Of a stretch of DNA of 21,462 nt, positions 1 through 21,462 are shown in pieces. The position numbers and the translations under genes were made by a program. The DNA is from a virus, in the IMG/VR virus record IMGVR_UViG_3300036852_000027, positions 1 through 21,462 of that record, one strand, 5' to 3'. The notes under the pieces are model-generated. The model worked only from the letters and a program-made list of their open reading frames with translations, had not been told where the DNA came from and searched no databases. Positions within the stretch are counted from its first letter, which is position 1, and every line of letters starts with the position of its first letter.

Positions 1-155
1 GACCCCGACTCTGAGGGCGACGGGCTGGAACTTGGCGATACACTTGCACTCGGACTAACTGACGCACTAGGTGATTGGGACGCACTCGGACTCACGGAAG
101 GTGATACTGACGCGCTTGGACTAGTCGAAGCACTAGGGCTCACGCTAAAGCTGGA
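1..155 (-). repeat. Ser/Pro/Ala-coding repeat in tail hub gene
   Basis: About 50 codons in which nearly every second residue is Ser, arranged as SP-S-x-S units with x = A, V, T or Q. Ser is encoded by AGC, AGT, TCA, TCC and TCG in mixed order, so the pattern is conserved as protein rather than as recent DNA duplication. It continues past the left edge. Confidence 0.85.
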
Positions 156-8040: not shown

Positions 8041-8057
8041 TGGTTAAGTCCAATGGC
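8036..8057 (-). promoter_or_regulatory. Hairpin burying the tape measure start codon
   Basis: Perfect inverted repeat GCCATTGG/CCAATGGC with a 6-nt loop. In the minus-strand mRNA the AUG of the tape measure gene lies in the 3' arm (CCAAUGGC), so the folded RNA would hide the start. It begins 11 nt after the stop of the Com-like gene, and no Shine-Dalgarno sequence lies between. This resembles the translation-inhibitor stem-loop at mom in phage Mu. A ribosome terminating on the Com-like gene could also open it. Confidence 0.65.
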
Positions 8058-8067
8058 ACTCGGCAGA

Positions 8068-8253
8068 TTAGGCAGGTGCTCGCAGAGTTCGTAGTATAGC
8101 AGGGTTATCAGCCATTTGCTTGAGAATCATCGCCACTGAAACGATGGCTGACTTTTTACAGTGACGACACTTGAGTTCGACGACGCCGTAGAAGTCCTTG
8201 CTCACCCGACAAAGGAGCTTGGAGCAGGCGTCACAGCGTACTTCGATGAGCAT
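8068..8253 (-). CDS. Mu Com-like zinc-finger regulator
   Basis: 61 aa. The ATG at 8253 overlaps the stop of the upstream gene (TGATG). It contains two Cys pairs, CDAC (7-10) and CRHC (29-32), with the frame IEVRCDACSKLL near the N-terminus and VELKCRHCKKSAIV after it. This closely follows the layout of phage Mu Com (RCKNCNKLL ... IRCPRCK), a small zinc-binding protein that binds mRNA and activates mom translation. Com-like proteins occur in many phages with no mom gene, often near tail genes. Here the next gene is the tape measure, whose start codon lies in a hairpin, so the likely target is that RNA; this is inference. The C-terminal ~20 residues are helical and unlike Mu Com. Confidence 0.75.
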   Translation of the reverse strand: MLIEVRCDACSKLLCRVSKDFYGVVELKCRHCKKSAIVSVAMILKQMADNPAILRTLRAPA

Positions 8254-8468
8254 CAGGTCAGCCTCTGCTTACATAAGTCGCAATGTGAGCCAGTGTTTGC
8301 GCATAACGGCTGAAAGACAAGCTCGTCTAGTTCTACTCCATCAAGGTCAACGTCTACGAATCGATTATCGTTAGACTTTACGCTGGCCATAAATGACGCA
8401 ATCAACTTGCGATCCTCGTCGGTCTCTGGAATCAGTGACAGTTCAGAACCTGTTAAGTCGATTTCCAT
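8253..8468 (-). CDS. Small acidic protein of unknown function
   Basis: 71 aa, with the ATG at 8468 overlapping the stop of the chaperone gene (TAATG), so it is probably translationally coupled. It is acidic at the N-terminus (MEIDLTGSELSLIPETDEDR) and has three cysteines near the C-terminus (C55, C63, C66 in CANTGSHCDLCK) that could bind a metal together with a histidine. It sits between the G-T chaperone and the Com-like zinc finger, and the shared Cys character of the pair may indicate joint action. I do not recognise a family. Its presence as an open, coupled frame in a dense operon supports it as a real gene. Confidence 0.65.
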   Translation of the reverse strand: MEIDLTGSELSLIPETDEDRKLIASFMASVKSNDNRFVDVDLDGVELDELVFQPLCANTGSHCDLCKQRLT

Positions 8469-9339
8469 TAGCGCCCTGCCAGCTTACGCGACTTGGCCTG
8501 AATATGCGCAGGGATTTGCGACCACAGCGACTCACGTTCAGCAGTCAACCGCGCCTGCTCGTCAGCCGACAACTCGTTGAACCTGACGTGGCGTTGTGAT
8601 TCGAGCTTTAGCTGCTCCTCGTAAGTCATAAAGTGTCTACCTTTCTCCTTGGCTTGCGTGGCCTGCACCTGTCGCTCAGCCTGCCGCAGGTGACGCATGT
8701 AGTCTTGGTATGACTTGTCAGTGGCTTGCGCAACTCGCGCGCTAATTATAGCCTCCTTAAACCTGCGCCGCTCAACCCGATCAATCTCAGCCAGAAAGTG
8801 ATTAATGTGGGCCATGGTGTAGGTACTGGTAATATTCACCAACGGCCCATGACCATGTTGGATTAACCAGTCGACGTGTCCCCACCAAGCGTCGGGATTC
8901 GCTGGAGTAAGCTGCCGAACATGTGGCTGACCTTGTCGAAGTTGGCCTGGGTAAAAAAATCCAGGTTCTTCTCGACCACCTTAATGAAGATTTGCAAGCC
9001 TTCCATCGGGTCCTGCACTTCCAGAAACTCGGGTGGTTCGTTGGTGGCGACGCCAATCAGGCCGAGCACGCTTGGCCCGCTGATTGAGATGGCTGTGACG
9101 GCAAAGTCCAACGCTTCCTCGGCAGCCAACTGCGGCTTACCTTGCGCGTCCTTGGGCAAGGCCATTAACCGCTTCAACAAGTAGCCCATCGGGCCGACGT
9201 ACTCCAGTGCCCTCGTCATTGGGCCAAGGGTGAACTTGCCGATGGCGTAGGTTTTCCCGAAGGCGGTGACTAGCTCAGGCGCATTGACTAGTTCTTTAAG
9301 TGCAGACTCTTCGGCAGTAGGCTTGGTTGGTGTTGTCAT
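8468..9339 (-). CDS. Tail assembly chaperone G-T fusion made by -1 frameshift
   Basis: Reading the chaperone frame from 9339 to the heptamer T-TTT-TTT (8959-8953) and slipping back one base gives TAC at 8953-8951. From there the frame is open without a stop into the 8842-8468 frame, ending at 8468. The product would be 290 aa: 129 from the G frame plus 161 from the T frame. This is very close to the lambda G (140) and GT (279) sizes. The T part starts YPGQLRQGQPHVRQL and ends in a charged helical region (EEQLKLESQRHVRFNEL). G and GT bind the tape measure and recruit tube subunits during tail assembly. The 124-codon segment 8842-8468 alone would need a TTG start with no Shine-Dalgarno, so production by frameshift is the better explanation. 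Confidence 0.85.
8863..9339 (-). CDS. Tail assembly chaperone, unshifted form (G-like)
   Basis: 158 aa from the ATG at 9339, following the hairpin-bearing gap after the tube gene. It is helical and charged (ESALKELVNAPELVTAFGKT, LLKRLMALPKDAQGK) with a conserved-looking IGKFTLGPMTRALEYVGP stretch near residues 32-50. The size, the position between tail tube and tape measure, and the in-frame slippery heptamer at codons 128-129 (LDFFTQ) identify it as the G-type chaperone. The C-terminal 29 residues after the slip site are present only in this form. No Shine-Dalgarno sequence is evident before the ATG. It shares its first 129 codons with the G-T fusion. Confidence 0.82.
   Translation of the reverse strand: MTTPTKPTAEESALKELVNAPELVTAFGKTYAIGKFTLGPMTRALEYVGPMGYLLKRLMALPKDAQGKPQLAAEEALDFAVTAISISGPSVLGLIGVATNEPPEFLEVQDPMEGLQIFIKVVEKNLDFFTQANFDKVSHMFGSLLQRIPTLGGDTSTG
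8953..8959 (-). other. Programmed -1 frameshift slippery site T_TTT_TTT
   Basis: Seven T on the minus strand in the phase GA-T TTT TTT ACC, the ideal X_XXY_YYZ phase for tandem slippage of both tRNAs. Complementary pentamers CCTGG (8965-8961) and CCAGG (8950-8946) flank it, so the heptamer would sit in the loop of a 5-bp hairpin. Confidence 0.85.
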
Positions 9340-9513
9340 AGGCTTAGTTGGTTAAGGTGAGTGGCTCAGGTCGCTCAGCAGAGGCCTACAGGCTTAGTCT
9401 TTGGCGTCTGGCTCTATTCACAGTCTGTACTGCCCTCAATGACCACTCACAGTAGGCGGCAGACTATCCGTGATCTGCCAGCACGACTTACACAGGAGTC
9501 ACATCAATGACCG

Positions 9514-9531
9514 GGTAGTACACATACTACC
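9514..9531 (-). promoter_or_regulatory. Second small hairpin downstream of the 22-bp stem
   Basis: Perfect 7-bp inverted repeat GGTAGTA/TACTACC with a 4-nt loop, starting only 4 nt beyond the long hairpin. The two together form a tandem structured block. It could act with the long stem to pause polymerase or block 3' exonucleases. Confidence 0.5.
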
Positions 9532-9535
9532 ACAC

Positions 9536-9583
9536 ACGACAAGGGGCTGAGCAAGTGTTTCCACTCACCCAACCCCTCACCGC
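9536..9583 (-). terminator. 22-bp hairpin with GAAA loop after the tail tube gene (attenuator/terminator-like)
   Basis: Transcribed leftward, arms 9583-9562 and 9557-9536 pair at all 22 positions (about nine are G-U) around a GAAA tetraloop. Read on the plus strand, those G-U pairs would be C/A mismatches, so the structure belongs to minus-strand RNA. It starts 20 nt after the tail tube stop codon. No clear U-run follows, so it may be a partial terminator, an RNase III site or a 3'-end stabiliser rather than a classic terminator. Confidence 0.72.
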
Positions 9584-9603
9584 TCCGGCTCACAGGTCTC
9601 GCG

Positions 9604-10461
9604 CTAAACCGAAGGACTTGCTGAATGCGATGGTGAAGCCGAAGCTGACGGCGACACGCTTGGACTCATCGAAGCGCTTGGGAAAGCAGCAATCGGCGGG
9701 TCGAGATAGATAAAGCGAGCGAATTGCCCGGTAGCCGCAGCGGCTGATTTCAGCGTGTCGGTAAGCGCTGAGCCGTTAAGCACCAATTGTCCAAACTCGT
9801 CATTGATCAACCCAAAACTCTCCGCTGGGTCAAGTCGAGTTTTGTAAATGTCAACAATCGTGCGCTCAAAGTCTGACGAACCACCTCTCGTTACCGAGGT
9901 TGCCGTGTTCAGTCCGTCAAGACGTACCCAAATTTCAGGAGCGCTTGTTTTGAACACACCTACCTGACGAGCCGCAGCAATCGTGTAGTCGGCGGTAATT
10001 GGACCAGTTAATCCAGTGACGTCGGTAAAGTGAATCACACCGCTGGCGTCCACATCGTAGAAAGTCGGGTCAATTGCTACGGCATTGTCGTAGAGTACGG
10101 CATTAGTGACAATGCCGGTGGTCTTTAACGAGTAACGCTCAGTAACCGTAGGCGCACCCGCAAGCACGGCTTCGGCCGCTACCGAACTACCCGCTACCGC
10201 CGACCCTTCACCGTAGGTAGCCAACTCCATGTTGGATTCCTTGAAATCGTCGGTGGTAATAGCCACGGTAGCCGTCAACTCGGTGATGATACGCGCGTCA
10301 GTCGTGCGATTGCCGGTGTACGACTCCTTGTGCGTCAACGTCGAGGTAGCAAGCCCTAACGTCATCGCTGGCGCATTGCCGAACCAGTTAAACTCTGATG
10401 GGTTACCATCATCGTCACGGTTGCTCCAAAAGACTGGGCCTTGGCCCGACCAGAGACTCAT
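9604..10461 (-). CDS. Major tail tube protein with Ser/Pro C-terminal tail
   Basis: 285 aa. A perfect GGAGGT lies a few bases before the ATG at 10461, as expected for an abundant product. The body is beta-rich with few charges. It has the tube-protein style N-terminus (MSLWSGQGPVFWSNRDDDGN), a mid-region with FYDVDASGVIHFTDVTGL (residues ~133-150), and an FERTIVDIYKTRLDPAESFG stretch. The position directly before the chaperone and tape measure genes fixes the assignment. The last 24 residues (262-285) are a Ser/Pro/Ala repeat ending SPSASASPSHSASPSV. With a tube of many subunits, this tail would be displayed hundreds of times along the outside of the phage tail. The extension is not needed for the tube fold and may be a glycosylation site or adhesion surface; that is inference. 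Confidence 0.82.
   Translation of the reverse strand: MSLWSGQGPVFWSNRDDDGNPSEFNWFGNAPAMTLGLATSTLTHKESYTGNRTTDARIITELTATVAITTDDFKESNMELATYGEGSAVAGSSVAAEAVLAGAPTVTERYSLKTTGIVTNAVLYDNAVAIDPTFYDVDASGVIHFTDVTGLTGPITADYTIAAARQVGVFKTSAPEIWVRLDGLNTATSVTRGGSSDFERTIVDIYKTRLDPAESFGLINDEFGQLVLNGSALTDTLKSAAAATGQFARFIYLDPPIAAFPSASMSPSVSPSASASPSHSASPSV
9607..9678 (-). repeat. Ser/Pro/Ala-coding tail of the tube protein
   Basis: 24 codons ending the gene. The 16-residue stretch VSPSASASPSHSASPS is identical to the end of the protein at 12723-13100, but codons differ at many synonymous positions; an 11-nt core TCGCATTCAGC is shared. Confidence 0.88.
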
Positions 10462-10474
10462 AAGCTACCTCCAA

Positions 10475-10993
10475 TTAGTTGACTGCGTAATGTTTAAAGT
10501 TTCGTACCAGTGCGCTGTTATGGCGCGTTTTCTCATACCATTCGACCACTTCTGCAACCTTCTCGCGTGACCAGCCGTGGGCGTAAAACAGATGGTCTAC
10601 CATTCCAGCCATATGCTCAACCTTCTCGCACTCCGAGGTCACACCACCGATATTGGATTCGCGCTCAACTTCAATCTTGAACTCGCCACGGCGATTGATT
10701 ACACGCCCGCCAGCTTGAATCCAACGTTGTTGCGAGCCGGGGCACACCGCAGGCATTCCCCAGTAGTGATGGAAGTAGTGGTGCTGGATGGCCCTGAAGG
10801 CATCCATGGCTGACTCAAACTTCAACTTATCCTTGCTGGTCCAATTAAACTTAGCTACGGCAGGCTGGACGGCCTCGCAGGCTGCGCCCCATGCATCGGA
10901 GCATAGTCCGCGACCTTCAACTTGACAGAATCGTTCTTGGTGCGATTCAGGTCGTAGAGTCAAGCCATACTTCATCGCCTCGCTCAGTCTCAA
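10475..10993 (-). CDS. Conserved-looking phage protein of unknown function
   Basis: 172 aa. Its ATG overlaps the upstream stop (ATGA, 10993-10990), and its own stop lies just before the ribosome binding site of the tail tube gene. The N-terminus MRLSEAMKYGLTLRPES followed by a GRGLCSDAWGAACEAVQP segment recalls small phage proteins beginning MKLSEAI-x-x-GA with a later CALGAA motif, which I have seen in diverse phages without a known role. A His/aromatic cluster (HHYFHHYW, residues ~71-78) and several Cys residues suggest metal binding is possible. It lies among neck and tail genes, so it may be a virion or assembly protein, but no function is assigned. Confidence 0.6.
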   Translation of the reverse strand: MRLSEAMKYGLTLRPESHQERFCQVEGRGLCSDAWGAACEAVQPAVAKFNWTSKDKLKFESAMDAFRAIQHHYFHHYWGMPAVCPGSQQRWIQAGGRVINRRGEFKIEVERESNIGGVTSECEKVEHMAGMVDHLFYAHGWSREKVAEVVEWYEKTRHNSALVRNFKHYAVN

Positions 10994-11565
10994 CTGACAC
11001 CTCCCAGTGGTTCAATCACACGCACGGCTAGCAAGCCTTCAGCCGAGTGGCACAAAATACCAGCGCAGGGGATTGGTAGCATGGTTGATACCTGTAGCCC
11101 GCCGTGGTCGCGGATGTAAGCACCCGGCCCGGCAATGTGCGCGGTGACTGTAGCAAATCCAAGTTTAGGGTTAGCGTTCAACGTCGTCCTAATCACCTCA
11201 ACATTCGTGCTAAATACCGCTTCGCTGCCTGCGCCGAACTGGTAGGCATAAGCTAAGCCAAATCTGCGCGTTATCAAGTTCTGGCCTCGGGGCCGGGTTT
11301 CCTCGCGTGTGCCGTCTGACTGCGGTGGTGCCTGACTAAGCCCGAGCTCAGTGATCATCAGGCAGTTGACTCGCTGGTCAGTGCCACCTGAAGCTAGCGT
11401 CGTCACGTCAGCAGGTGACTTGAGCACCGTGGGGTCTTCACCTTCAGCCACCAAGTACGCGAGCGGTAAATAGTCAAGGATCTTGGCCTTCTTACCCGTG
11501 GCCAGCGGGGTGGTTAGCAGCGTAACGAGCTGCGTCTTGATCTGGTTCGCTGTTGGTGGTGCCAC
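10990..11565 (-). CDS. Probable tail terminator / tail completion protein
   Basis: 191 aa, starting 4 nt after the HK97 gp10-like gene. N-terminal helix (ANQIKTQLVTLLTTPLATGK), then a mixed region with RRFGLAYAYQFGAGSEAVF (residues ~100-118) and a helix NVEVIRTTLNANPKLGFA. The pattern of an N-terminal helix, beta strands and one amphipathic helix, together with the slot between gp10-like neck protein and tail tube, matches tail terminators (lambda U / HK97 gp11 position). This is an assignment by context and shape; no diagnostic motif is visible. It would cap the tail tube and join it to the head. Confidence 0.5.
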   Translation of the reverse strand: MAPPTANQIKTQLVTLLTTPLATGKKAKILDYLPLAYLVAEGEDPTVLKSPADVTTLASGGTDQRVNCLMITELGLSQAPPQSDGTREETRPRGQNLITRRFGLAYAYQFGAGSEAVFSTNVEVIRTTLNANPKLGFATVTAHIAGPGAYIRDHGGLQVSTMLPIPCAGILCHSAEGLLAVRVIEPLGGVS

Positions 11566-11569
11566 ATTA

Positions 11570-12013
11570 TTAGCTCACTGTGACGAATTGCTTCACCTTC
11601 TCAAGTGCCAGTCGATCAATCTGCGGTCGAGCCTGCGCGACGGCTATTCGGCTAAACCTGCGTGCAGCCATCCCAGCGCTGGCACCGTACCTATAGCCAC
11701 GTGGTGCAGGTTGACCTGTCTGTGCGCCCAGCCGACCAGTGCCATACTCGCCGAATGCTGGATACGGCGCACCCTTGTTGGTCGCTGTCGGAAACAGCCG
11801 ATACACCTTGCTCGACTTCTCAATGATCAATTCCTCCTGCAGCGAGTTAACCGTGGCCCCAGTGCGATGCCACCGCTGGCGGATGCTGGCTTCTTCCTCG
11901 CGCCTCAGTATCTGCGCGCCATCCAGCAGAATGTCATCCTGCAGCGCCTCAGCCTGTCGCCGAAAGTCACGGAACACTCGGCCTAGTTGTAGGGTCACTA
12001 GTTGCTCAGCCAT
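11570..12013 (-). CDS. HK97 gp10-like neck/tail completion protein
   Basis: 147 aa from the ATG at 12013, which overlaps the upstream stop as ATGA; the frame stays open further upstream, but that part lies inside the preceding gene. An N-terminal helix (VFRDFRRQAEALQDDILL) is followed by TGATVNSL (51-58), a beta region, and the signature YPAFGEYGTGR (84-94), ending in a helical segment (MAARRFSRIAVAQARPQIDR). The HK97 gp10 family typically shows TG-x-L..S followed by YA-x-F-x-E-x-GT-x-x and an aromatic/Ala-rich end, and this fits well. These proteins sit at the head-tail joint or act in tail completion. Neighbours are a head-closure candidate upstream and a terminator candidate downstream, as in HK97-type clusters. 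Confidence 0.75.
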   Translation of the reverse strand: MAEQLVTLQLGRVFRDFRRQAEALQDDILLDGAQILRREEEASIRQRWHRTGATVNSLQEELIIEKSSKVYRLFPTATNKGAPYPAFGEYGTGRLGAQTGQPAPRGYRYGASAGMAARRFSRIAVAQARPQIDRLALEKVKQFVTVS

Positions 12014-12378
12014 CAAACTCTCTCTCCAGTCGGCTGCAGCTTGAACTCGTAGCTTGGCACCGAGCCCACAAACGAGTCCTTGCTCACAAACTTGTAAACC
12101 GTGTCGCCTACTTTCACTGCGGTCATAGCTCGCAACTTCTCCAGCCTGCATCCATCCACGTCCTCGACTACCAGCCGCTTGAACTTCTTGCCAGCTACCA
12201 CGTCGCTGTATTCGTGCTTGTCCAGGTACCAGTGCGAGTCGTAGGTGGCTATCGGGTTGATATACGGCCCCGTAGTCACGTCGTACAGCTTCAAACAAAC
12301 CCCCTCAAGAAATATCGACCTCAGCCTGTCGTGTGCCCGGCCTCGTGCGCGAGCTATGCGCTGCCCCCGACTTGCCAT
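12013..12378 (-). CDS. Probable head closure / head-tail joining protein
   Basis: 121 aa. The start is taken as the ATG at 12378, which forms ATGA with the preceding stop; the same frame is open 74 codons further upstream but only inside the previous gene. It has a basic N-terminus (MASRGQRIARARGRAHDRLR) and then a beta-rich body with TYDSHWYLDKHEYSD and MTAVKVGDTVYKFVSKDSF. Size, beta character and position between an adaptor-like protein and the gp10-like protein fit head-closure (stopper) proteins. No family-specific motif is recognised, so this is a context call. Confidence 0.55.
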   Translation of the reverse strand: MASRGQRIARARGRAHDRLRSIFLEGVCLKLYDVTTGPYINPIATYDSHWYLDKHEYSDVVAGKKFKRLVVEDVDGCRLEKLRAMTAVKVGDTVYKFVSKDSFVGSVPSYEFKLQPTGERV

Positions 12379-12710
12379 CAATACACCCACAGGGTTGGGA
12401 CGCTGGTCGTGGCTACCCCACCCGTAATCGACGTGTCTCGTAACTCGGGCAGACCCAGCAGCAGGCGCATCCGCTTGCGTATGTCGTCCAGTGATTCCTG
12501 GTCTTCCAGCCGCACGCCTTCCTTGCCCCCCTGCAGCCCAATCAAGTCGCCTGGGGCAATCTGCTGCCAAGCGCTGATGAAGTCCAATACCCGCTCCCAT
12601 TGCGCGTCGTTCAAGTTATCAATGAGCGTGGAGATGTAGCTGAAACTTAACTCACCAGCCACCTCTCTCGTACTGTCAATGTCCTCATCTTCGATAGTGA
12701 CGGTTGGCAT
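12378..12710 (-). CDS. Probable head-tail adaptor (connector) protein
   Basis: 110 aa, beginning at the ATG at 12710 just after the Ser/Pro-tailed gene. Acidic N-terminus (TIEDEDIDSTREV), a predicted helix (ISTLIDNLNDAQWERVLDF), then a Gly/charged turn and a basic amphipathic helix (DDIRKRMRLLLGLPEL). The short helical make-up and the place two genes after the capsid and before head closure match HK97 gp6-type adaptors that dock under the portal. The call is mainly from gene order and secondary-structure feel. Confidence 0.5.
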   Translation of the reverse strand: MPTVTIEDEDIDSTREVAGELSFSYISTLIDNLNDAQWERVLDFISAWQQIAPGDLIGLQGGKEGVRLEDQESLDDIRKRMRLLLGLPELRDTSITGGVATTSVPTLWVY

Positions 12711-12722
12711 GCACGTACCTCA

Positions 12723-13100
12723 TCACGTCGACGGACTGGCTGAATGCGAAGGTGACGCGCTCGCAGACGGACTAACTGAACCGCTTGGCGAGCCCGATGC
12801 ACTTGGACTGCGTGACGCGCTTGGTGAACCGGAGCCACTTGGTGACGCGCTGGCGCTTGCTGCCGTGATAGTAGCCGTTTGCCATAGCCCGTCGGCGTCA
12901 ACCACGTGTAGCCCACCACCGGGGTGAAGCGCAATGGAGCCGATACCGTAAGCCGACGATGACCCATCGTTGAAGTTAGCGTCACGGCTAAGCTGGGTTG
13001 TGAGCCCAACTACCACCTCGTCGCCATTCGCATCCACGCCAAATGACAATGCCGCGTTAACCCGGATGATGTTATTGTTGATTCGTTTAAACCAGCCCAT
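12723..13100 (-). CDS. Small virion-region protein with long Ser/Pro C-terminal tail
   Basis: 125 aa. The ATG at 13100 is chosen because a perfect TTGGAGGT lies 7 nt upstream; a TTG five codons earlier would place the ribosome binding site inside the gene. The body (residues 1-81) starts GWFKRINNNIIRVNAALSFG and contains ANGDEVVVGLTTQLSR and GIGSIALHPGGGLHVVDADG, suggesting a small beta domain. Residues 82-125 are Ser/Pro/Ala/Gly repeats ending SVSPSASASPSHSASPST. The strong ribosome binding site and location shortly after the capsid gene suggest an abundant head or neck decoration protein. I do not recognise the N-terminal family. The tail is the longest complete Ser/Pro tail in the window and a candidate target of the operon's glycosyltransferase (inference). 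Confidence 0.72.
   Translation of the reverse strand: MGWFKRINNNIIRVNAALSFGVDANGDEVVVGLTTQLSRDANFNDGSSSAYGIGSIALHPGGGLHVVDADGLWQTATITAASASASPSGSGSPSASRSPSASGSPSGSVSPSASASPSHSASPST
12726..12857 (-). repeat. 44-codon Ser/Pro/Ala/Gly repeat tail
   Basis: Hexad-like units SPS-x-S-x with x = A, G, R, V or H. The final 16 residues before Thr-stop match the tube protein tail. Mixed Ser codons show old, protein-level repetition. Confidence 0.88.
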
Positions 13101-13150
13101 TGGATGTACCTCCAACTTAACTGCAAGTGCAGCCCGTGGTTACTTGGTTG

Positions 13151-13363
13151 CTACTTCTTCGTCGATTTCCAGTCTCCGCTGAGATCGCCGCGTGCGATCA
13201 TGGCCTTCAACTGCGTGTTGTTGAACTGCGCTGCCAGTTCGTCCTCCATGCCTACGGTGAACGTCACCGACTTGCGTTGCGGCCTGCCGTCACGCATCTT
13301 CTTCTCACCATCTACCACCATCACGCGGATGCCTCGGTGGATTGTGCGGTTGTCTTTAGCCAT
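13151..13363 (-). CDS. Small basic protein after the capsid gene
   Basis: 70 aa, starting one base after the stop of the major capsid gene. It has 17 Lys/Arg residues, with basic patches RGIRVMVVDGEKKMRDGRPQ and a C-terminal GDWKSTKK. The middle VTFTVGMEDELAAQFNN looks like a strand-helix unit. Many phages have a short gene at this position, some encoding head-completion or decoration factors, but I do not recognise this sequence. Tight spacing suggests translation coupled to the capsid gene. Confidence 0.65.
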   Translation of the reverse strand: MAKDNRTIHRGIRVMVVDGEKKMRDGRPQRKSVTFTVGMEDELAAQFNNTQLKAMIARGDLSGDWKSTKK

Positions 13364-13364
13364 A

Positions 13365-14414
13365 CTAGGTCACCAGCGTATTCTCGACCCTAAGCCGCTG
13401 TTCGTTGGGAATGGTTAGCGGATTACACTGCACCTCAACCTTCAGCTCCTTACCAGTCTGTGCCTCGTCGTAATACACTGTCATGCCACGCTGGTCGATG
13501 CCCGCGTTGCCCGAGGCTGCGGCTAGTTCCATCGCGCGCTTGACCGGCGCAAACACCGTGCGACCCACGACCCCACCTTGTGGCACCGCAGCGATATAGC
13601 CCGCTGGCCAGACGTTAGCTGACGAGGTTGCCGTACCACCATCCGTGAACTTCTCCACGGTGTCGTCAAACAAGAAGAAGTTGAACGGAGCGCCGAGGTC
13701 GCGGGATACGCGCTCGGCAAGGTCTGCACGGGTCATGCTGACACCGCCAATCAGGTCAGGTGCGTCAGCTTGAATTTCGCGTAACAGGGCCATGCGTAGC
13801 ACTACACCACTGACCGACCCAATCTTATCCACCGCATCCTCAAGGAAGGCGATGAGCAAGTCGTAGGCATTCTCACCGGGGTCGTCCCAAGCGGTGCCAG
13901 CGGTCGTCAGGCGCGCGGTGTCGAAGTCAAAGGACGTTTGGAAAGTTGAGCCCGTCTGTGGATTCATCGCGGTGATAATACCAGTCGCCCAGGTCGAGAA
14001 CGCGTCAACCTCAATACGGCGATAGTTGGCTTCGACTAACTGCGCGACCTTGCCGGGAATGCTGCGGCCTATGATCTGGTTAATCGCCGCCTCGTTCACG
14101 CCCGCACGCTCAGCCAGCTTCTGCAACTCGTACTCACCCCATTTGTAGTAGTCCTCGACGGGGACGATGCTGAGACGACGGATGTCCGGGGTCTTGTCTG
14201 GGATGAGTCTGCCGGGTGAGTTCCATTCCCTGCGATCTGACACGGGCCGGAAGTCCAGCGTGGTCACCTCGTTGATGTCCACCGAATCTACATCCTGACG
14301 CGGGAAGAACACGTCCCATTTGAGACGTCCCTGGTCGTTGGGACTGATGGTTTGCGCAACTACTGTCAAGGCGGCTGGCGAGAGTTCCTCAACCAGTGGG
14401 ATAAGCGATCTCAT
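13365..14414 (-). CDS. Major capsid protein
   Basis: 349 aa. AGGAGGT lies 7 nt before the ATG at 14414, overlapping the stop of the decoration gene. The protein has the make-up of lambda E / phage Mu-type capsid proteins: N-terminal LKWDVFFPRQDVDSVDINEV (extended arm), a helix-rich WGEYELQKLAERAGVNEA region (~92-109), a central GENAYDLLIAFLEDAVDKIG helix, VVLRMALLREIQ, and a C-terminal beta segment with EVQCNPLTIPNEQRLRVENT. Length (~350) and the upstream order scaffold, decoration, capsid match the lambda-like E family (HK97 fold). No N-terminal protease domain is present. It should be the most abundant virion protein. Confidence 0.85.
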   Translation of the reverse strand: MRSLIPLVEELSPAALTVVAQTISPNDQGRLKWDVFFPRQDVDSVDINEVTTLDFRPVSDRREWNSPGRLIPDKTPDIRRLSIVPVEDYYKWGEYELQKLAERAGVNEAAINQIIGRSIPGKVAQLVEANYRRIEVDAFSTWATGIITAMNPQTGSTFQTSFDFDTARLTTAGTAWDDPGENAYDLLIAFLEDAVDKIGSVSGVVLRMALLREIQADAPDLIGGVSMTRADLAERVSRDLGAPFNFFLFDDTVEKFTDGGTATSSANVWPAGYIAAVPQGGVVGRTVFAPVKRAMELAAASGNAGIDQRGMTVYYDEAQTGKELKVEVQCNPLTIPNEQRLRVENTLVT

Positions 14415-14425
14415 TCGTCAACCTC

Positions 14426-14839
14426 CTAGGTGTTGGTAACGTGAATCATACTGCCTGCGGCGTTGAATGCGGCAAGCTCGTTGGCCGTATAGGCGCGGCC
14501 AAGGTTATCTTCGGCAACGTCGCGGTTGATTTCGCCAATCGTGCCCATGCCGACCGGGATGGTGGCCGTGTCGGCAGCCAGCAGCGCATCGGTTGGCACG
14601 TAGTCGATAATCTTCTGTGGTTCAGGGTTGACGGCATAGATGAACTCGCCACCAGTGCCATCTGCCAACGTGCCATCCTTCTTGAACGGTACGCCTGGTT
14701 TCAGGAACCCGTCAGCGTCTACCTCGGCAGTGGTTAGTTCACTAATGTCCACCACCACCTGCTGCAACCCCAGCACCTTACCGACGAAGGGATGTCCATA
14801 AGTGGATGTCCCGGTTGTTTTGACTACTGATACTGGCAT
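14426..14839 (-). CDS. Head decoration-type protein
   Basis: 137 aa, lying between scaffold and capsid genes as lambda D-type decoration proteins do. AAGGAG lies about 10 nt upstream of the ATG at 14839. The N-terminus has GTSTYGHPFVGKVLGLQQVV, then a Gly-rich acidic region (FKKDGTLADGTGGEFIYAV) and a C-terminal helix (GRAYTANELAAFNAAGSM). The Gly/Thr-rich beta profile fits a capsid-surface protein that binds the expanded shell. Similarity to lambda D itself is not evident by eye, so the assignment rests on position, size and composition. Confidence 0.6.
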   Translation of the reverse strand: MPVSVVKTTGTSTYGHPFVGKVLGLQQVVVDISELTTAEVDADGFLKPGVPFKKDGTLADGTGGEFIYAVNPEPQKIIDYVPTDALLAADTATIPVGMGTIGEINRDVAEDNLGRAYTANELAAFNAAGSMIHVTNT

Positions 14840-14868
14840 GGCTCATTGTCTCCTTCGTCAGTGTGTGG

Positions 14869-15585
14869 TTAAGCTGTCTTGGCGATACCGAAGCGACTGG
14901 CTACGTCACCTGCTGTGGCTGCGGTCTGGTTCCACTGCTTGCCAAACTCGCGGGCTGCGGCAAACGGGTCAGCGGCTCCGGTTGCACCTGCGCTGGCCCC
15001 GCTGGTGGATACTGTCGTTTCACCTTTGGCCTTCAGCGCAGGTAGCAGTGGCGCGTAGGTAGCTTCAACGTACTCAGTGGCTACTTTCTCGACTACCTTG
15101 TCGCCGTCTTTAACCAGTGCGACTACCGACTTCTTGCCATCCTTCTCACGGATCTCCATGTCGGGTAGGTTGGCGAGTTGCAGGAATGCCGCTTCGTTGT
15201 AGCCCAAGGCCGCAGCTACCTTGCGCTGGTTCTCCACCCGCTGCGCCTTGGCTACCTCAGCCTTCAGCGACTCGTGCTCGGTCAGCTTGGTTTTCACCTC
15301 AGCTATCGGCCCGAGGGCTTTCACCTCGTTGAGCAGCTCGGCGTCAGCTTTGGCCACCGCGACGTGTCCGCGAGGCAAGCCGGAGGACTTGGCTGAATCG
15401 AGATCGGACTGAAGCTGAGTCGCTTTGTCGTCAGCTTCCTTCTTCTCGTTGAGTAACTTAGCGTTATGTTTAATTGCTGGATGATCGTTGGGAATATCAG
15501 CGTGCCACTTGCCGTCTTCACGCTTGGAATAATGCTCCCGCAAGGCTTCGGGAACATCGGTTTGATTACTATAGGCTGTTAGCAT
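14869..15585 (-). CDS. Capsid scaffolding protein
   Basis: 238 aa. It begins near DVPEALREHYSKREDGKWHA (residues 11-30), a pattern common at the N-terminus of phage scaffolds (x-P-x-x-L-R-x-x-Y). A long charged coiled coil follows (LLNEKKEADDKATQLQSDLD; LTEHESLKAEVAKAQRVENQ), with an Ala/Gly/Thr-rich C-terminal region. Scaffolds usually combine a coiled coil with a capsid-binding C-terminus and precede the capsid gene, as here. The ATG at 15585 has only a weak GGA a few bases before it and sits behind a terminator-like hairpin and two mini-hairpins, so expression is likely regulated at this leader. Confidence 0.78.
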   Translation of the reverse strand: MLTAYSNQTDVPEALREHYSKREDGKWHADIPNDHPAIKHNAKLLNEKKEADDKATQLQSDLDSAKSSGLPRGHVAVAKADAELLNEVKALGPIAEVKTKLTEHESLKAEVAKAQRVENQRKVAAALGYNEAAFLQLANLPDMEIREKDGKKSVVALVKDGDKVVEKVATEYVEATYAPLLPALKAKGETTVSTSGASAGATGAADPFAAAREFGKQWNQTAATAGDVASRFGIAKTA

Positions 15586-15588
15586 AAT

Positions 15589-15619
15589 GTCCGCTGGACT
15601 TTCTGTCTCCCGCTGGGAG
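15589..15619 (-). promoter_or_regulatory. Twin mini-hairpins with identical AGC loops before the scaffold gene
   Basis: In minus-strand RNA, CUCCC-AGC-GGGAG (15619-15607) and GUCC-AGC-GGAC (15599-15589) fold into two short stems with the same loop, 7 nt apart. The second contains the only GGA before the scaffold ATG at 15585, so folding would hide the weak ribosome binding site. They look like paired protein-binding sites, but this is unproven. Confidence 0.4.
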
Positions 15620-15636
15620 GTTGGTTTGTAAAGAAG

Positions 15637-15685
15637 AAAGCCTTGCTAACGAGAATCGCTTTACGATCCCCACCAGCAAGGCTTT
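15637..15685 (-). terminator. 22-bp terminator-like hairpin upstream of the scaffold gene
   Basis: In minus-strand RNA the arms 15685-15664 and 15658-15637 pair at all 22 positions around a 5-nt loop (UAAAG). The outer 11 bp are perfect Watson-Crick (AAAGCCUUGCU/AGCAAGGCUUU) and the inner 11 include five G-U pairs. CUUCUUUAC follows, giving a U-rich trail as in intrinsic terminators. It separates the portal/HNH block from the scaffold/capsid block. Confidence 0.72.
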
Positions 15686-15709
15686 AGTCCAATCTTGAAA
15701 AAGGAGCTT

Positions 15710-15910
15710 CTACCCTGACTGCATCCTCACGCGCCTGTCACAGTGGCCGCAGCGTTGATAAACAATACCTAACTTGCGTTCAATGGAAGCCAACTGCATC
15801 AACAACGCGTGACGTTGCTCGATCCAGAACTCACGGTCAGCAACTGGCGCTATAATAGGCGGTTTGTCGCCAGTGTCAAGAGGTTTAACAATTCGCACAG
15901 CTGGTTGCAT
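15710..15910 (-). CDS. Small protein with a CGHC motif, unknown function
   Basis: 66 aa. N-terminal Pro/Val-rich segment (MQPAVRIVKPLDTGDKPP), a helix with EFWIEQRHALLMQLASIERK, and near the C-terminus RCGHCDRRVR, a single CxxC-type pair. It starts 12 nt after the 59-aa gene and is followed by the terminator-like hairpin, so it closes a short run of small genes. No ribosome binding site is evident. The CGHC could be a redox or zinc motif, but one pair alone does not show a fold. Confidence 0.55.
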   Translation of the reverse strand: MQPAVRIVKPLDTGDKPPIIAPVADREFWIEQRHALLMQLASIERKLGIVYQRCGHCDRRVRMQSG

Positions 15911-15922
15911 GGTTGATAGTAG

Positions 15923-16102
15923 TTAGTTTTGTCGGTTCAGGACGTCTATTTGGGCCACGAAAGAATCGCATACCCAGCCTGCGGCAATGGTCTCATTGTC
16001 AAGTGCGACGCAGGCATTGATGGCCGATTGGGCCACACGGGGAACGTAGCAATCTTCAATGATTAGCACGAGAGGCCAGTAGTTGATTGTGTCGGTGTTC
16101 AT
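15923..16102 (-). CDS. 59-aa small protein, unknown
   Basis: A 59-aa frame from the ATG at 16102. It begins MNTDTINYWPLVLIIEDCYV and ends FVAQIDVLNRQN before a TAA. The ATG overlaps the stop of the 37-aa gene as ATGA, the coupling seen across this operon. It fills a gap that would otherwise be unused. The amino-acid mix looks like a folded helical protein (hydrophobic positions spaced, three Cys). The family is not recognised. Confidence 0.55.
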   Translation of the reverse strand: MNTDTINYWPLVLIIEDCYVPRVAQSAINACVALDNETIAAGWVCDSFVAQIDVLNRQN

Positions 16103-16212
16103 TCTCGCCCACTAACTAGCGCATGACGCTGCTTCATGTAATGCCGAGTCGTCGGCCAGTCAGGTGCATTAATAATCATCTCGTTTAGTAGGCTTATCAA
16201 GTCAGCTTTCAC
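16099..16212 (-). CDS. 37-aa protein with GTG start and strong ribosome binding site
   Basis: A short frame starting at GTG (16212) with TTGGAGGC a few bases upstream, the best ribosome binding site in the small-gene run. The protein begins MKADLISLLNEMIINAPDWP and ends in a basic stretch with RHYMKQRHALVSGRE. The stop overlaps the next start (ATGA). The strong signal and coupling support translation. It may have a role of its own or feed ribosomes into the 59-aa gene. Confidence 0.5.
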   Translation of the reverse strand: MKADLISLLNEMIINAPDWPTTRHYMKQRHALVSGRE

Positions 16213-16278
16213 CGCGCCTCCAATATTACGATTGCCATGCTCGCGCCAAAAAGCACGGCTAGCAACTTTCTTTTGTCG

Positions 16279-16719
16279 TCAAATTAAGTTACCGACACGT
16301 CTTGGGTTAGCTCGCTGAAATTCCTCTACTAACGTCGGCACCACAGCCGGATGCTCCGGTGATACTACTACCCGTTCAGCGGGTCGCAGCTTGACGCCCC
16401 TTGCCAATGTAGCGTCAGCCTTTTGGGCAAATTCCAACTTATCTTTTAGCTTGGGAATAAACGGCACACATTGAGACTCAGCTAACGCTCGCTCTTGATT
16501 ACAGTTTTGGCAAGCCAGAACGTGAAGCGTCCCGTCACGGTTAACGTGTCGTGCTCTTCGTTCTGGGTGCCAGCGTGAATACAGGTGATCAACGGTTGCG
16601 AAGTTAGGTAACCGCATACCGTCTAGGACAGTCAGTACGCCGCACCAAAAACAATGCGGGTTAACACGAAACAACCGCTGTCTCATTGGGAGACTAAAAG
16701 ATACCTGTTTCAACGACAT
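16279..16719 (-). CDS. HNH endonuclease
   Basis: 146 aa from the ATG at 16719, which overlaps the portal stop (TGATG); a TTG one codon earlier is also possible. A zinc-binding HNH core is visible: CFWCG (Cys23, Cys26), ATVDHLYSR (Asp44-His45, catalytic His), a basic linker (WHPERRARHVNR) and LACQNCNQERA (Cys70, Cys73, with Asn72/Asn74). The remaining ~70 residues are a basic helical tail (KLKDKLEFAQKADATLARG). Such enzymes nick or cut DNA; in phages they act with terminase during packaging or as free-standing homing nucleases. Terminase is outside the window. Its place between portal and scaffold is less usual than next to terminase, which leaves the homing explanation open. Confidence 0.85.
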   Translation of the reverse strand: MSLKQVSFSLPMRQRLFRVNPHCFWCGVLTVLDGMRLPNFATVDHLYSRWHPERRARHVNRDGTLHVLACQNCNQERALAESQCVPFIPKLKDKLEFAQKADATLARGVKLRPAERVVVSPEHPAVVPTLVEEFQRANPRRVGNLI

Positions 16720-18398
16720 CAATTGACCGCCTCGCTGGTCGTCGGTTTGGGAGTTTGCTGGCCTTCGACGGGTGCCAGACCTTCGGGCAGCTTAGCCTCG
16801 GGCAGCTTCGACTCCTGCTCGATCTTAGCCAGCTCGGCTGCGGCATCCTCAACCCCACACATGTTGCGCGCGGTCTCGTCACTTACCAGTGGCTGGTTCT
16901 TGGGCCCACCCGGCTGACGGAGTAGTATTGCCGTCTTCTGCTTCTCGGGGTCTGGGTCGCCAGCGTCAATCAGGCAGTTGAAGTCAGCGCGCAAGGTCGA
17001 GTACGTGGACACTTGGCCTGCGAGTTGGGCAGCAAGGCGCAACGTGACTTCCAGTTGCCATCGTCCGCTAGCATCCAGCACCACCTTGGATTCCTTGAGC
17101 GAGCGTTCAAACTCGCGGCGGGCTACTTCACGCGCTCGACCTGACGTGTCAGCCTTGTCGACAATCAACACATGGCGCTGGTGACACTGGGAATAGATGG
17201 CTTGCTTTTCCTGCGCGATGGTCTCCTTGAAGGTCTCTACGCTAACCGGGTCGTATACGCTGACATTCGGGTTGGTGTAGCCAACGATACTACGCCCGTC
17301 CTCTGAGTAAATGGGCCAGCCGTTGACGAAGTTCACCGCGCCTGCGCCAGTCTTGTACGTGCCGGGGAAGCGGCCTGCGGTCTTGGTAGTATCTGCGGTG
17401 ACGGAAACCTTGTTTGTCGCTGGCAGTGGTGGCTGAGCATTGGTGATGGTACGTTCTCGGCTGCCAGCCAGATTCACATTGCGCATCATCATGGTGTGGG
17501 CGAGGTTGAGTGCTCGCTGGTTCGACTGCACCTGTTCGGTGATCAATGCATCACGGGTTAGCTCGTAGATCAGCAACTGGCCACCGAGGTCGTAGGGTCG
17601 CAATTCAGTCGGCGCGCCCTTGTCGCGGACAATGCGGCAGACGGTCTGGCCTCCGTTGTTGAGAAAGCTAAGCTCCGCACAATTCGCCGTCACATTGCCA
17701 TTATTGTCGCGCTCCTGGAATAGGAAGATGCCAAGGTTGGCCTGCGTGTCGGGGTCAGTGAACACGCCTGCGACATCGGCAGCCACCGTCTCGAAGTAGA
17801 TGAAGTTGAGTGCGCTGGCTAAGTCGGGTTGCGCGGGAATCTTGCCGCCCAATGCTCGCGGGAAGAAGATGCGACGCACGGCCTTGCCTTCGCATAGCAG
17901 CATGGTGGTTGCCAGTTGCAGGTCGCGTAACGCTTGCCGGTTGTTCCACCACTTGATCAGGGTTTCGCCAGTCACATTCTCAAAGCTGGACTTGTTGGAG
18001 CGGTCGGTCTCACCCTCAGCCTGCAGGAACGACCAGATAGGCTCACGACCCAGAATGCCGCCAACGTGCGTCTTCACCACTTCCTTGATGACGTTCTCAG
18101 TGACGAAGCCAGCGCGGATGTCAGCTTTGATGGACGCGGCACCGAGGAGTGATGGCGGGGGCAGTTGCCCGATGAACCCCAACCCGTCCATCCAGTGATT
18201 GCCGCCGTAGAACTCGGTGGCTGCGAGGGCGGTAATTGTGCGTCGTGTCGTGAACCCCTGCTGTGTGGAGCCTGCACCAAGGGTCAACAGCGCGGTCAGC
18301 GAATTGGGCAGCGTGACCGTCCCATCGCCGACAGACATCTGACGACCCACCAGTTGGGCGGCATCGTCGAAGTCGTAGGATGTGAATGGCTTGCCCAT
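16719..18398 (-). CDS. Portal protein
   Basis: 559 aa, the large gene before the scaffold and capsid genes. The central part has helical and mixed stretches (NVTGETLIKWWNNRQALRDL; RALNLAHTMMMRNVNLAGSR), a strand-rich centre (NFIYFETVAADVAGVF) and a C-terminal acidic, Pro/Glu/Lys-rich tail (residues ~520-559). Length, gene order and this make-up fit a dodecameric portal at the capsid vertex through which DNA is packaged. I cannot assign it to a specific portal family by eye. The ATG at 18398 has no Shine-Dalgarno sequence and follows the upstream stop by three bases, implying coupled translation. The gene runs uninterrupted into the HNH gene. Confidence 0.75.
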   Translation of the reverse strand: MGKPFTSYDFDDAAQLVGRQMSVGDGTVTLPNSLTALLTLGAGSTQQGFTTRRTITALAATEFYGGNHWMDGLGFIGQLPPPSLLGAASIKADIRAGFVTENVIKEVVKTHVGGILGREPIWSFLQAEGETDRSNKSSFENVTGETLIKWWNNRQALRDLQLATTMLLCEGKAVRRIFFPRALGGKIPAQPDLASALNFIYFETVAADVAGVFTDPDTQANLGIFLFQERDNNGNVTANCAELSFLNNGGQTVCRIVRDKGAPTELRPYDLGGQLLIYELTRDALITEQVQSNQRALNLAHTMMMRNVNLAGSRERTITNAQPPLPATNKVSVTADTTKTAGRFPGTYKTGAGAVNFVNGWPIYSEDGRSIVGYTNPNVSVYDPVSVETFKETIAQEKQAIYSQCHQRHVLIVDKADTSGRAREVARREFERSLKESKVVLDASGRWQLEVTLRLAAQLAGQVSTYSTLRADFNCLIDAGDPDPEKQKTAILLRQPGGPKNQPLVSDETARNMCGVEDAAAELAKIEQESKLPEAKLPEGLAPVEGQQTPKPTTSEAVN

Positions 18399-18918: not shown

Positions 18919-19305
18919 TCACGTTGACGGGGACACTGACGATGACGGGCTTACCGACGCACTCACCACCGGCACCACGCCATACAGGTTGATGATCCGG
19001 TAGCGATACTTGGCTGTGCCGTGCTTTATAGGTGAGCCGTAGTCCCACTCGACGGTGACTTCGGCAACCTCCGATGGCAGTCGCTGCTGGTAGATGCGGT
19101 TCTCAGCGCTTGTAATCTCCAAGTCTGCAGTGGTGCCCAGTGGGCTGATGGCGGTTTGCGGCAGCACGGCAATCTTCTTCTGCGGGCGGTCGATGCGATA
19201 GGTGGCTGACGACGGCACTACTGGAGCGCCGTCCTGGTCAAAAAAGCTGACCGTCACGAAGCTCGTCGTGCGCTCGTTCACTTCATCTAAGCACTCGTCA
19301 GCCAT
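18919..19305 (-). CDS. Ig-like beta protein with short Ser/Pro tail
   Basis: 128 aa from the ATG at 19305 (GAGG 9 nt upstream); an ATG five codons earlier has no ribosome binding site. The body reads as an Ig-like beta-sandwich: VTVSFFDQDGAPVVPSSATY, then a YRID strand, an acidic turn, EVAEVTVEWDYGSPIKHGTA, and a final RYRIINLYGV strand. Small beta-sandwich proteins of this style, ending in NL-x-G, are common in phage structural regions. The last 14 residues are SASVSPSSSVSPST. It is two genes downstream of the glycosyltransferase, with which it could be paired as substrate (inference). A role on the virion surface is likely but not shown. Confidence 0.68.
   Translation of the reverse strand: MADECLDEVNERTTSFVTVSFFDQDGAPVVPSSATYRIDRPQKKIAVLPQTAISPLGTTADLEITSAENRIYQQRLPSEVAEVTVEWDYGSPIKHGTAKYRYRIINLYGVVPVVSASVSPSSSVSPST
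18922..18963 (-). repeat. 14-codon Ser/Pro tail of Ig-like protein
   Basis: Two SVSPS units ending SPST-stop, the shortest of the four Ser/Pro segments. The terminal SPST matches the end of the protein at 12723-13100. Confidence 0.85.
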
Positions 19306-19471
19306 GTATCGTAACCTCATGTCGCTGCCAGCGCTTTAAGTTCATGGCTTCTAAAGAATAGTCGAAGAACTCGAATAGTATGTCCCGGTTGGGCGCTATG
19401 GAGATCTCACCAGTCTGGCCCATTTCATCACAGAACCAAAGGCTGTCCTCAACGTGTCTCAGTGTTACCAT
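19298..19471 (-). CDS. 57-aa small protein between glycosyltransferase and Ig-like genes
   Basis: A 57-aa frame from the ATG at 19471, which lies inside the end of the glycosyltransferase gene, to a TGA at 19298 inside the start of the Ig-like gene. It bridges the whole gap between them with overlaps on both sides. It begins MVTLRHVEDSLWFCDEMGQT and includes NRDILFEFFDYSLEAMNLKR, a plausible folded acidic/aromatic mix. A GGAG lies about 11 nt upstream (weak). Family not recognised. Support is the exact gap fit and the reasonable protein composition. Confidence 0.5.
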   Translation of the reverse strand: MVTLRHVEDSLWFCDEMGQTGEISIAPNRDILFEFFDYSLEAMNLKRWQRHEVTIHG

Positions 19472-21230
19472 TAGCAAGCTGCTCCAACCATTCAGTCATA
19501 CGACCAGCCAATTGCGGCCAGCCGGGCAAGGGATTGTCGGTCTCCTGCCAGCCCTTAGAGTATTTCTTATTTCTAAACTCGTCCACTGAAAACTTTGGCT
19601 TAGTCAGCGTGCGTCCATGCCCGGTGACGTCCACGTTGGGATATGCCGACTCCCAGTTGGCCACCTTGGTGCCGTCGAAGTTCCCCCGGGTGCCAGGTTC
19701 GTAAGCCATGGCCTTGACGTCAAACTGGCCACCGTTGGCCTCGATGAGTTCGATGCGTTTACGGTAGTGTTCCAGTAGTAGCAGACGATTGGCGCAAATG
19801 CCCGAGACTTGTTGGAGGCCGTCGGTACGCACGGTATGGCCATCCGAGTAGCGAACGCGCCAGACGTTGGTGTTGTAGTAGATCGTTGAATCGTCAGGCG
19901 GCGTGAAGTCGAAGTGGCTTGCCGAGTAGAAAACGTCGGACTCGCACAGAAACACGTAGTCGGCAGTTGAGCGACGCAGCCCTTCAAGAATCTGGTAGTG
20001 CATCGTAGTGCCGGACTTCTCTCGCTGCACGACGATCTGCCAGTCGCCGAAGTCCACACGCTCGTTCAGGGTGACGCAGCCCAGTTCGTGGCCATTGGTG
20101 GAGGCGCGCAGATTGTTGCGGGCGGCGAGTTCGAGGGTTTCGTCGTGGCTAAGGCACGAATAGTAGAGGGCGCATTTGGTTACTTGCCTAAGTGGCGGTG
20201 GTGGGGCTTGGCGACCATAGAACCTCTCACCCTCAGCCTTCACCAGTTGCACAGTGGCATTCTGCTCGTTGGACCAGTCAGGAATTGGGCTGAAGTGGTC
20301 TATAAGCCATTGCAGAGGGCGCACTTGCTTGTCCCACTTGTTGGTCAGCCACATTTCTTTACAACGGGCCATTGCGCGTTCTTTCATCCCGCCACCGGGA
20401 TAGGGGAAGTGGAGCCCGCCTACACGGAACATATGCGCGAACCAGACGTGAGAATTCGAGACTAGCCGACCACCGCTAAGCCACGACTTGCACGCCACCT
20501 CGGTGCCCTGTTGCCCCCAGCTGCCGTACCTCTCGTCACAGATGTCGAGGTGGAAGTACCTCTCGCGCCTGATGGCCCAGCAGGCTCCGAGTAGTGACAT
20601 AGTATCGTGGATCGTGGGCGGTTGCAGGTTGTTGCGCTTGACGTAATCACCGAAGCCGTGCGGGCAGTATTCCAGCTTGGTGTCAAAGCGCCAACAATGC
20701 ATGGAAGTGTTACGACGACCCGACTTGCGATCTACGTCACTGCCATCACGGCCATCACGCGGGAACCATTGCTTGACTTGTTTGACGTAGCGTGAGCCAC
20801 ACTGACCGCACTTGGCAGGTTGCGGTGATTGGTCCTTGAGCCAGCCGCACTTCTTGCACTTCCAGTTGAAGGCCAGCAAGTTGAATTGGGAGGCTACGAT
20901 TGTCCAGTCAGGCTCAGCGCCTTGCAATAGACCCACATCAAAGTTCTCGCTAACGGCGCAGTGAGCGTCCAGCTTGCACACCCATTCACCGGTAGCAATC
21001 CGCGCAGCTTCGTTGGTGGCTGCACGCTGACCAATTGACTTATTGTGATGAACGTAGGTAACACGAGGATGCTGGAACAGCGACTGAGGCGTCCAGCCAT
21101 CGAGAACAACAACGACTTCGCAGGCATCGGTCGTGTTGACTGTGACGTTCTCAACCGTGGACTTGAGTAGATCGATGTCGTAGCAGACTTCGTTGCGGGC
21201 GGGGATTAGGATGCTTAGCTTGTAGGCCAT
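19449..21230 (-). CDS. Two-domain glycosyltransferase, GT2/GT27-like, with zinc-ribbon insert
   Basis: 593 aa from the ATG at 21230. Domain 1 (residues ~1-300) has a GT-A start (LSILIPARNEV, 6-16), VVVVLDG (39-45), and GEWVCKLDAHCAV (81-93) with a DxH motif (Asp88, His90). A Cys4 zinc-ribbon-like insert follows (CKKC 125-128, CGQC 141-144), then YGSWGQQGTEVACKSW, GG and HVWFAHMFR (235-269). DxH plus WG..-E-W-GG-H-FR resembles polypeptide GalNAc-transferases, which start mucin-type O-glycans on Ser/Thr near Pro; GT2 relatives share parts of this. Domain 2 (~352-570) has DYVFLCESDVFYSASHFDF (424-442), resembling a second GT-A metal site (ESD). No membrane segment is seen, so it should act in the cytoplasm. 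Its place among structural genes with Ser/Pro-tailed proteins suggests virion glycosylation. A role in modifying host surface sugars or DNA is the alternative. Confidence 0.78.
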   Translation of the reverse strand: MAYKLSILIPARNEVCYDIDLLKSTVENVTVNTTDACEVVVVLDGWTPQSLFQHPRVTYVHHNKSIGQRAATNEAARIATGEWVCKLDAHCAVSENFDVGLLQGAEPDWTIVASQFNLLAFNWKCKKCGWLKDQSPQPAKCGQCGSRYVKQVKQWFPRDGRDGSDVDRKSGRRNTSMHCWRFDTKLEYCPHGFGDYVKRNNLQPPTIHDTMSLLGACWAIRRERYFHLDICDERYGSWGQQGTEVACKSWLSGGRLVSNSHVWFAHMFRVGGLHFPYPGGGMKERAMARCKEMWLTNKWDKQVRPLQWLIDHFSPIPDWSNEQNATVQLVKAEGERFYGRQAPPPPLRQVTKCALYYSCLSHDETLELAARNNLRASTNGHELGCVTLNERVDFGDWQIVVQREKSGTTMHYQILEGLRRSTADYVFLCESDVFYSASHFDFTPPDDSTIYYNTNVWRVRYSDGHTVRTDGLQQVSGICANRLLLLEHYRKRIELIEANGGQFDVKAMAYEPGTRGNFDGTKVANWESAYPNVDVTGHGRTLTKPKFSVDEFRNKKYSKGWQETDNPLPGWPQLAGRMTEWLEQLANGNTETR

Positions 21231-21233
21231 CGA

Positions 21234-21425
21234 CTATTTGCGTTTGAGCCCTTCGCTGTAGGACGCCAGCTTGGCCCACTCGGCAGGTGTAACGACCAGT
21301 GTGGCGAGAGTACGATCACCCCGACCCCAGTAGAGGGCAATTTGGTAGTTGCCGTCTGCAAGTTTCCTTAGGCGCAGTTCACGGCTGCTGGTTGTTTTCA
21401 CCGTGTAGTCCTTGGTTTCAGCCAT
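21234..21425 (-). CDS. Small basic protein, unknown
   Basis: 63 aa from the ATG at 21425, which has AAAGGGG 8 nt upstream; a GTG seven codons earlier lies upstream of that site and is less likely. Strand-rich start (DYTVKTTSSRELRLRKLADG), then NYQIALYWGRGDRTLATLVV and a helix (TPAEWAKLASYSEGLKRK). The profile is a small beta protein with a final basic helix. It ends three bases before the glycosyltransferase start, so the two are probably translated together. No family recognised. Confidence 0.6.
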   Translation of the reverse strand: MAETKDYTVKTTSSRELRLRKLADGNYQIALYWGRGDRTLATLVVTPAEWAKLASYSEGLKRK

Positions 21426-21462
21426 CGCAATTACCCCTTTACCCACATGAATGAGCGAATAG

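Follow-up and report, generated by a model that had tools for sequence, protein, structure and literature searches.

A two-domain glycosyltransferase beside phage virion genes

The viral DNA analyzed here, positions 1 to 21,462 of IMG/VR virus record IMGVR_UViG_3300036852_000027 (the window, 21,462 nucleotides at its full length), encodes phage virion proteins and, close to one end, a 593-amino-acid (593-aa) glycosyltransferase, P0001 (Table 1). Every virion gene of the window is on the minus strand, as is the enzyme gene. A sequence-only reading had given correct coordinates for this open reading frame (ORF), and the two motifs to which it had pointed, a DAH at residues 88-90 after GEWVCKLD and a distal WGQQGTE...W...GG...HVWFAHMFR block, are present as described, with WGQQGTEVACKSWLSGG...HVWFAHMFR covering residues 238-269.

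Pfam recognized GT2 alone in this protein. A phmmer search of PDB with the single sequence already matched polypeptide N-acetylgalactosamine (GalNAc)-transferases (E=2e-5), and a profile of 71 enzyme sequences found GALNT1 as its best PDB match (E=3.7e-14), with bacterial GT2 structures at 2e-6. The fold search against GT27 and GT2 that the sequence-only reading had proposed recovered a GT27 fold: the AlphaFold2 model of the N-terminal domain had a mean predicted local distance difference test score (pLDDT) of 91.5, and Foldseek ranks 1-49 against PDB were all GT27 (E 1e-14 to 2e-12). Rank 50 for the enzyme was K4 chondroitin polymerase, a tandem GT-A enzyme, with 604 columns aligned. The residues that align with the GT27 metal ligands (D88, H90, and H266) were invariant in 71 relatives, as were W238, G239, E244, and R269. 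The complete D-x5-WGGEN-x-E motif was not found in the enzyme, where D, WG, and the final E are kept and GEN is replaced by QQG. By sequence profile and modeled fold, the N-terminal domain is related to the GT27 polypeptide GalNAc-transferases without being a full member of that family, and by alignment the GT27-type metal site, DxH plus a distal His, is kept.

Two further elements accompany this domain. A zinc-ribbon insert, with weak rubredoxin-like matches, has C125 and C144 invariant and C141 kept in at least 90% of the 71 sequences. The C-terminal domain (pLDDT 96.1) had only glycosyltransferases among its listed PDB fold matches (best E=4e-6); no ricin-type lectin domain (PF00652) was matched in the 593-aa enzyme, and a GT-A fold stands in that place instead. 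Some loci encode the two domains as separate adjoining ORFs, such as 10001-10987 and 10997-11710 in L011, an arrangement that fits two cooperating catalytic units.

Table 1. Positions of the enzyme, its domains, the Ser/Pro tails, and related features (window coordinates unless a locus is named)
Feature	Position	Strand	Basis or remark
P0001, 593-aa dual-domain glycosyltransferase	19449..21230	minus	PF00535 E=3.4e-16; relatives 37-67% identical across 71 loci
N-terminal GT27-like GT-A domain, residues 1-322	20265..21230	minus	AlphaFold2 model, PDB fold matches, profile match to GALNT1
DAH (D88-A89-H90), metal-binding DxH by alignment	20961..20969	minus	Matches LDAHC of GALNT1
Zinc-ribbon insert, C125/C128/C141/C144	20799..20858	minus	Inside GT27-like domain; kept across enzyme family
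Gal/GalNAc-T-like block, D232-x5-WGQQGTE...H266-MFR	20424..20537	minus	Aligned to GT27 motif
Second (C-terminal) GT-A domain, residues ~350-571	19518..20183	minus	E430-x-D432 invariant in relatives
133-aa protein adjoining transferase (gene 18919-19320), SVSPSSSVSPST tail	18922..18957	minus	Tail kept in L005, L006, L322
130-aa protein adjoining major capsid gene (gene 12723-13115), 42-aa SxSPS tail	12726..12851	minus	
Major tail protein (gene 9604-10461), 22-aa SxSPS tail	9607..9672	minus	phrog_807 E=2.3e-53
Tail-tip/fibre protein (gene 3-1976, open at contig end), SxSPS stretch	3..146	minus	PF13550 Phage-tail_3
Small ORF directly upstream of enzyme	21234-21461		L005 counterpart 48% identical
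Giant SxSPS proteins, 84-143 motifs, upstream of enzyme	L005:1969-6195; L006:2443-6708; L397:12284-14533		
Second GT27-like enzyme, often fused to Methyltransf_24	L063:8529-10025; L005:6547-8688		

Ser/Pro tails on virion proteins

The four proteins with mucin-like tails reported by the sequence-only reading are present, all on the minus strand, and ORFs rich in SxSPS are nearly absent from random viral loci. Ser codons of the TCN and AGY families are mixed within the window tails, which indicates that the pattern is kept at the protein level and rules out a DNA-level microsatellite. In repeats from the enzyme loci, Ser occupies positions -4, -2, +2, and +4 of a given Ser in 94-95% of cases, and Pro-Pro spacing is even only, mostly 4, 6, or 8. 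This combination places Pro at -1/+3 or -3/+1 of Ser, as in a four-residue SPSx unit. GT27 enzymes have a known preference for Pro, which the placement of Pro around the repeat Ser resembles.

The tails persist while the proteins that carry them diverge. In L005, L006, and L322, homologues of the tail tube, 130-aa, and 133-aa proteins keep their tails on bodies mostly 40-72% identical to those of the window, and the L322 homologue of the tail-tip/fibre protein (L322:18342-20750) matches the tail protein family phrog_1101. The window tail proteins resemble those of Pseudomonadota phages; 203 isolate phages, of Pseudomonas, Vibrio, and Stenotrophomonas, encode homologues of the major tail protein, and in the best 30 of these 203 matches the alignment stops short of the tail, at query residue 251-253. 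The tail proteins of B3 and DLP5 stop where the tail would start and have no Ser/Pro tail.

LamG or Gly-rich domains are found at the N terminus of some repeat proteins, as might be expected if the sugar sat elsewhere on the virion and the repeats were lectin-like or adhesive structures traveling with the cassette. Short tails at conserved positions of four unrelated virion proteins form the pattern of a recognition tag and not of an adhesin domain, and we judge this alternative improbable.

A 559-aa portal-like protein (16719-18398), kept at 60-62% in relatives, had no PHROG or Pfam match.

Enzyme and repeats occur together across viruses

A search of IMG/VR found 326 enzyme relatives, of which 80 loci were kept for a pairing count against 120 control loci drawn by an arbitrary 14-mer; ORFs with at least 5 SxSPS motifs were scored as repeat ORFs. 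Such an ORF was present in 61/80 enzyme loci and 1/120 random loci (Fisher 4e-33, loci treated as independent), and the single positive control, L205, proved to be the L006 enzyme contig itself. Under a looser alternating-Ser criterion the counts were 65/80 and 4/120. Repeats reached hundreds per ORF, all 114 of 114 SxSPS ORFs were on the enzyme strand, and the nearest lay at a median of 1.0 kb. In the reverse direction, a DNA pattern was used to fetch records that are 18 kb or longer and carry a repeat-rich ORF (n=23), and the enzyme was detected in 19 of them, one weakly (E=7e-8), compared to 0/40 random records. Co-occurrence of the transferase with Ser/Pro-tailed proteins, the check that the sequence-only reading had proposed, was thus very strong in both directions. 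Che8-type glycosyltransferase loci had at most 2 SxSPS motifs, showing that the repeat does not follow just any phage glycosyltransferase. As in phage virion glycosylation systems, a phage-borne glycosyltransferase is encoded with its predicted virion substrates.

These data also bear on whether the enzyme might modify a host glycan, through seroconversion or on a surface polysaccharide, with the Ser/Pro segments serving as unmodified flexible spacers. Phage GT2 enzymes are often serotype converting, and sugar-nucleotide genes are found in some of the loci. However, the N-terminal domain matches peptide-modifying GT27 and not lipid-linked GT2, the enzyme sequence has no apparent membrane segments, enzyme and repeats are paired in both search directions, and spacers would not need strictly alternating Ser. 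Modification of a host glycan is unlikely on this evidence.

When 50,697 isolate phage records were searched by tblastn with P0001 or L041 as queries, no enzyme was found, apart from one weak 30% piece. With the paralogous enzyme described below as query, the best 20 of 60 isolate records matched in the methyltransferase part only.

Cassette genes beyond the window

The window ends just upstream of the enzyme. At that position, the nearest relatives hold a giant repeat protein (84-143 motifs) and a fusion of glycosyltransferase and methyltransferase, and the L322 genome also has an NDP-sugar epimerase on this side. Across a neighborhood survey of 124 loci, a second, single-domain GT27-like enzyme was found in 94, Methyltransf_24 proteins in 89 (partly fused to this paralogous glycosyltransferase), a free C-domain glycosyltransferase in 54, and a UDP-sugar dehydrogenase in 20. 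The sequence-only reading had captured the GT27-like first domain; it did not note the zinc ribbon or the second GT-A domain, nor the paralogous glycosyltransferase and methyltransferases beyond the contig end.

Glycosylation of phage DNA, as a form of base hypermodification, has precedent in phage glycosyltransferases that act on modified bases (cited in PMC12619734). No base-modification gene family was recurrent in the 124 neighborhoods, and the enzyme pairs with structural repeat proteins; a role on DNA is very improbable.

Judged by eye, HNH-type, homing-endonuclease-like ORFs lie inside some cassettes (L001:7257-7724, L002:8571-9143).

Occurrence in cells

Among GTDB genomes, the enzyme was found almost only in metagenome-assembled genomes of Patescibacteria. 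It was present in 3/286 other Patescibacteria genomes, a count that rules out this phylum as a general carrier, and in 0/188 other genomes from the phylum of a Myxococcales hit. In L380 (CP066693.1, a complete chromosome; 1894-17647) and L385, the GT27-like/repeat cassette forms a chromosomal island beside tatC, and in L380 it includes FnlA-, WecB-, and WbjC/WbcJ-like genes, a UDP-FucNAc-type route. A prophage origin of these two loci is not favored; they are flanked by tatC and other cellular genes and showed no gene for a capsid or portal. No obvious signal peptide is present on the repeat proteins of the Patescibacteria loci. With the paralogues as outgroup, a FastTree tree reconstructed a viral root and 14 virus-cell changes, a preliminary result that suggests repeated transfer.

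A model for mucin-like decoration of the virion

The explanation that we hold to be highly probable is that P0001 is a two-domain protein-Ser O-glycosyltransferase whose acceptors are the Ser/Pro tails of virion proteins, giving a mucin-like decoration. A soluble, cytoplasmic enzyme would act on Ser of the tails inside the infected cell, while virions assemble or earlier. With a divalent metal held by D88, H90, and H266, the N-terminal domain would transfer a sugar from a nucleotide sugar onto Ser of extended SxSPS segments; the next sugar is most likely added by the C-terminal GT-A domain. Acceptors would be the tails on the tail tube, the tail tip, and two putative head/neck-region proteins, with methyltransferases capping the sugars, so that a hydrated, mucin-like brush may cover tube, tip, and head-region proteins. 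With the giant repeat protein, second GT27-like enzyme, and methyltransferases of its relatives, such a virion would carry methylated short glycans. While homology in sequence and fold, metal-site conservation, tails, and genomic pairing are observed directly, we infer catalysis, the order of sugar addition, and the donor sugar. The phage might benefit through shielding, hydration, adhesion, or less nonproductive binding.

Several points weigh against this explanation. Glycosylation by the enzyme is predicted from genes and models, and no cultured member was found among isolate phages. The change from WGGEN to WGQQG means that GalNAc is not assured as the sugar, and the donor may differ from it. 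Four of the 23 repeat-rich records had no detectable enzyme, and 15 to 19 of the 80 enzyme loci had no repeat ORF; many of the latter are short fragments, and a repeat match was also absent from some records of greater length, for example that of L054. Pairing counts and Fisher values ignore shared ancestry, although members are mostly only 37-45% identical to the window enzyme.

With moderate confidence, the wider set of loci can be read as a widespread, so far undescribed prokaryotic form of mucin-type O-glycosylation, in which dual GT27-like enzymes would recognize a modular SxSPS sequon tag, placed on tube, tip, and head-region proteins and multiplied to hundreds of copies in giant proteins, and would build a methylated-glycan bottle brush on virions. 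Such a system would be phage borne and sporadic in Patescibacteria chromosomes, and mucin-type glycosylation would have a viral or bacterial counterpart. The cassette occurs in hundreds of viral contigs, its enzyme is related to those that initiate mucin O-glycans in animals, and it has its own recognizable acceptor tag, so that co-expression and mass spectrometry could test it directly. If the model holds, phages with a sugar coat form a class that is common but has stayed uncultured, and the enzyme is a soluble Ser O-glycosyltransferase that bacteria can express and that comes with a short portable tag; the model also bears on the origin of GT27-type enzymes.

Comparison with known glycosylation systems

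To our knowledge, only a few mycobacteriophages have been shown to have glycosylated virions. Virion glycosylation is reported for Che8, Corndog, and Myrna (Freeman et al. 2023, Cell Host Microbe; via PMC12363180, PMC10877033, and PMC12619734), where phage-encoded transferases reportedly modify capsid and tail-tube proteins at their C termini (PMC12619734), a parallel to the substrates proposed here. Che8 gp108 is a fusion of GT2 and Methyltransf_24, like the second enzyme of the cassette. However, gp108 to gp110 are not detectable homologues (best 4 bits, A2 profile), neither the Che8 capsid nor the tube carries an SxSPS tail, and Che8-type systems have no GT27-like enzyme, dual glycosyltransferase, or giant repeat proteins. 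The sequence-only reading knew of no description of the GT27-like/Ser-Pro pairing, and likewise none appeared in the papers searched. The new element is most likely a variant of phage virion glycosylation that uses a GT27-like enzyme; virion glycosylation as such was already known, and its closest precedent, in mycobacteriophages, involves unrelated enzymes.

Eukaryotic GT27 enzymes (CAZy) share with the phage enzyme a GT-A fold, DxH, a third His ligand, the D-x5-WG...E pattern, and Ser/Pro-rich acceptors. In contrast to them, the phage enzyme has no N-terminal membrane anchor and no ricin-type lectin domain, and it has a zinc-ribbon insert, a second GT-A domain, and QQG for GEN. K4 chondroitin polymerase and heparosan synthase 2 also join two GT-A domains in tandem on one chain, but they polymerize glycosaminoglycans, whereas in the phage enzyme a GT27-like N-terminal domain is linked to peptide acceptors. 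Bacterial serine-rich repeat adhesins are densely repetitive in Ser and have dedicated transferases whose genes lie close by; those transferases are of other kinds, the adhesins are secreted to the cell wall and are not virion proteins, and the phage SxSPS repeat is set apart by its Pro.
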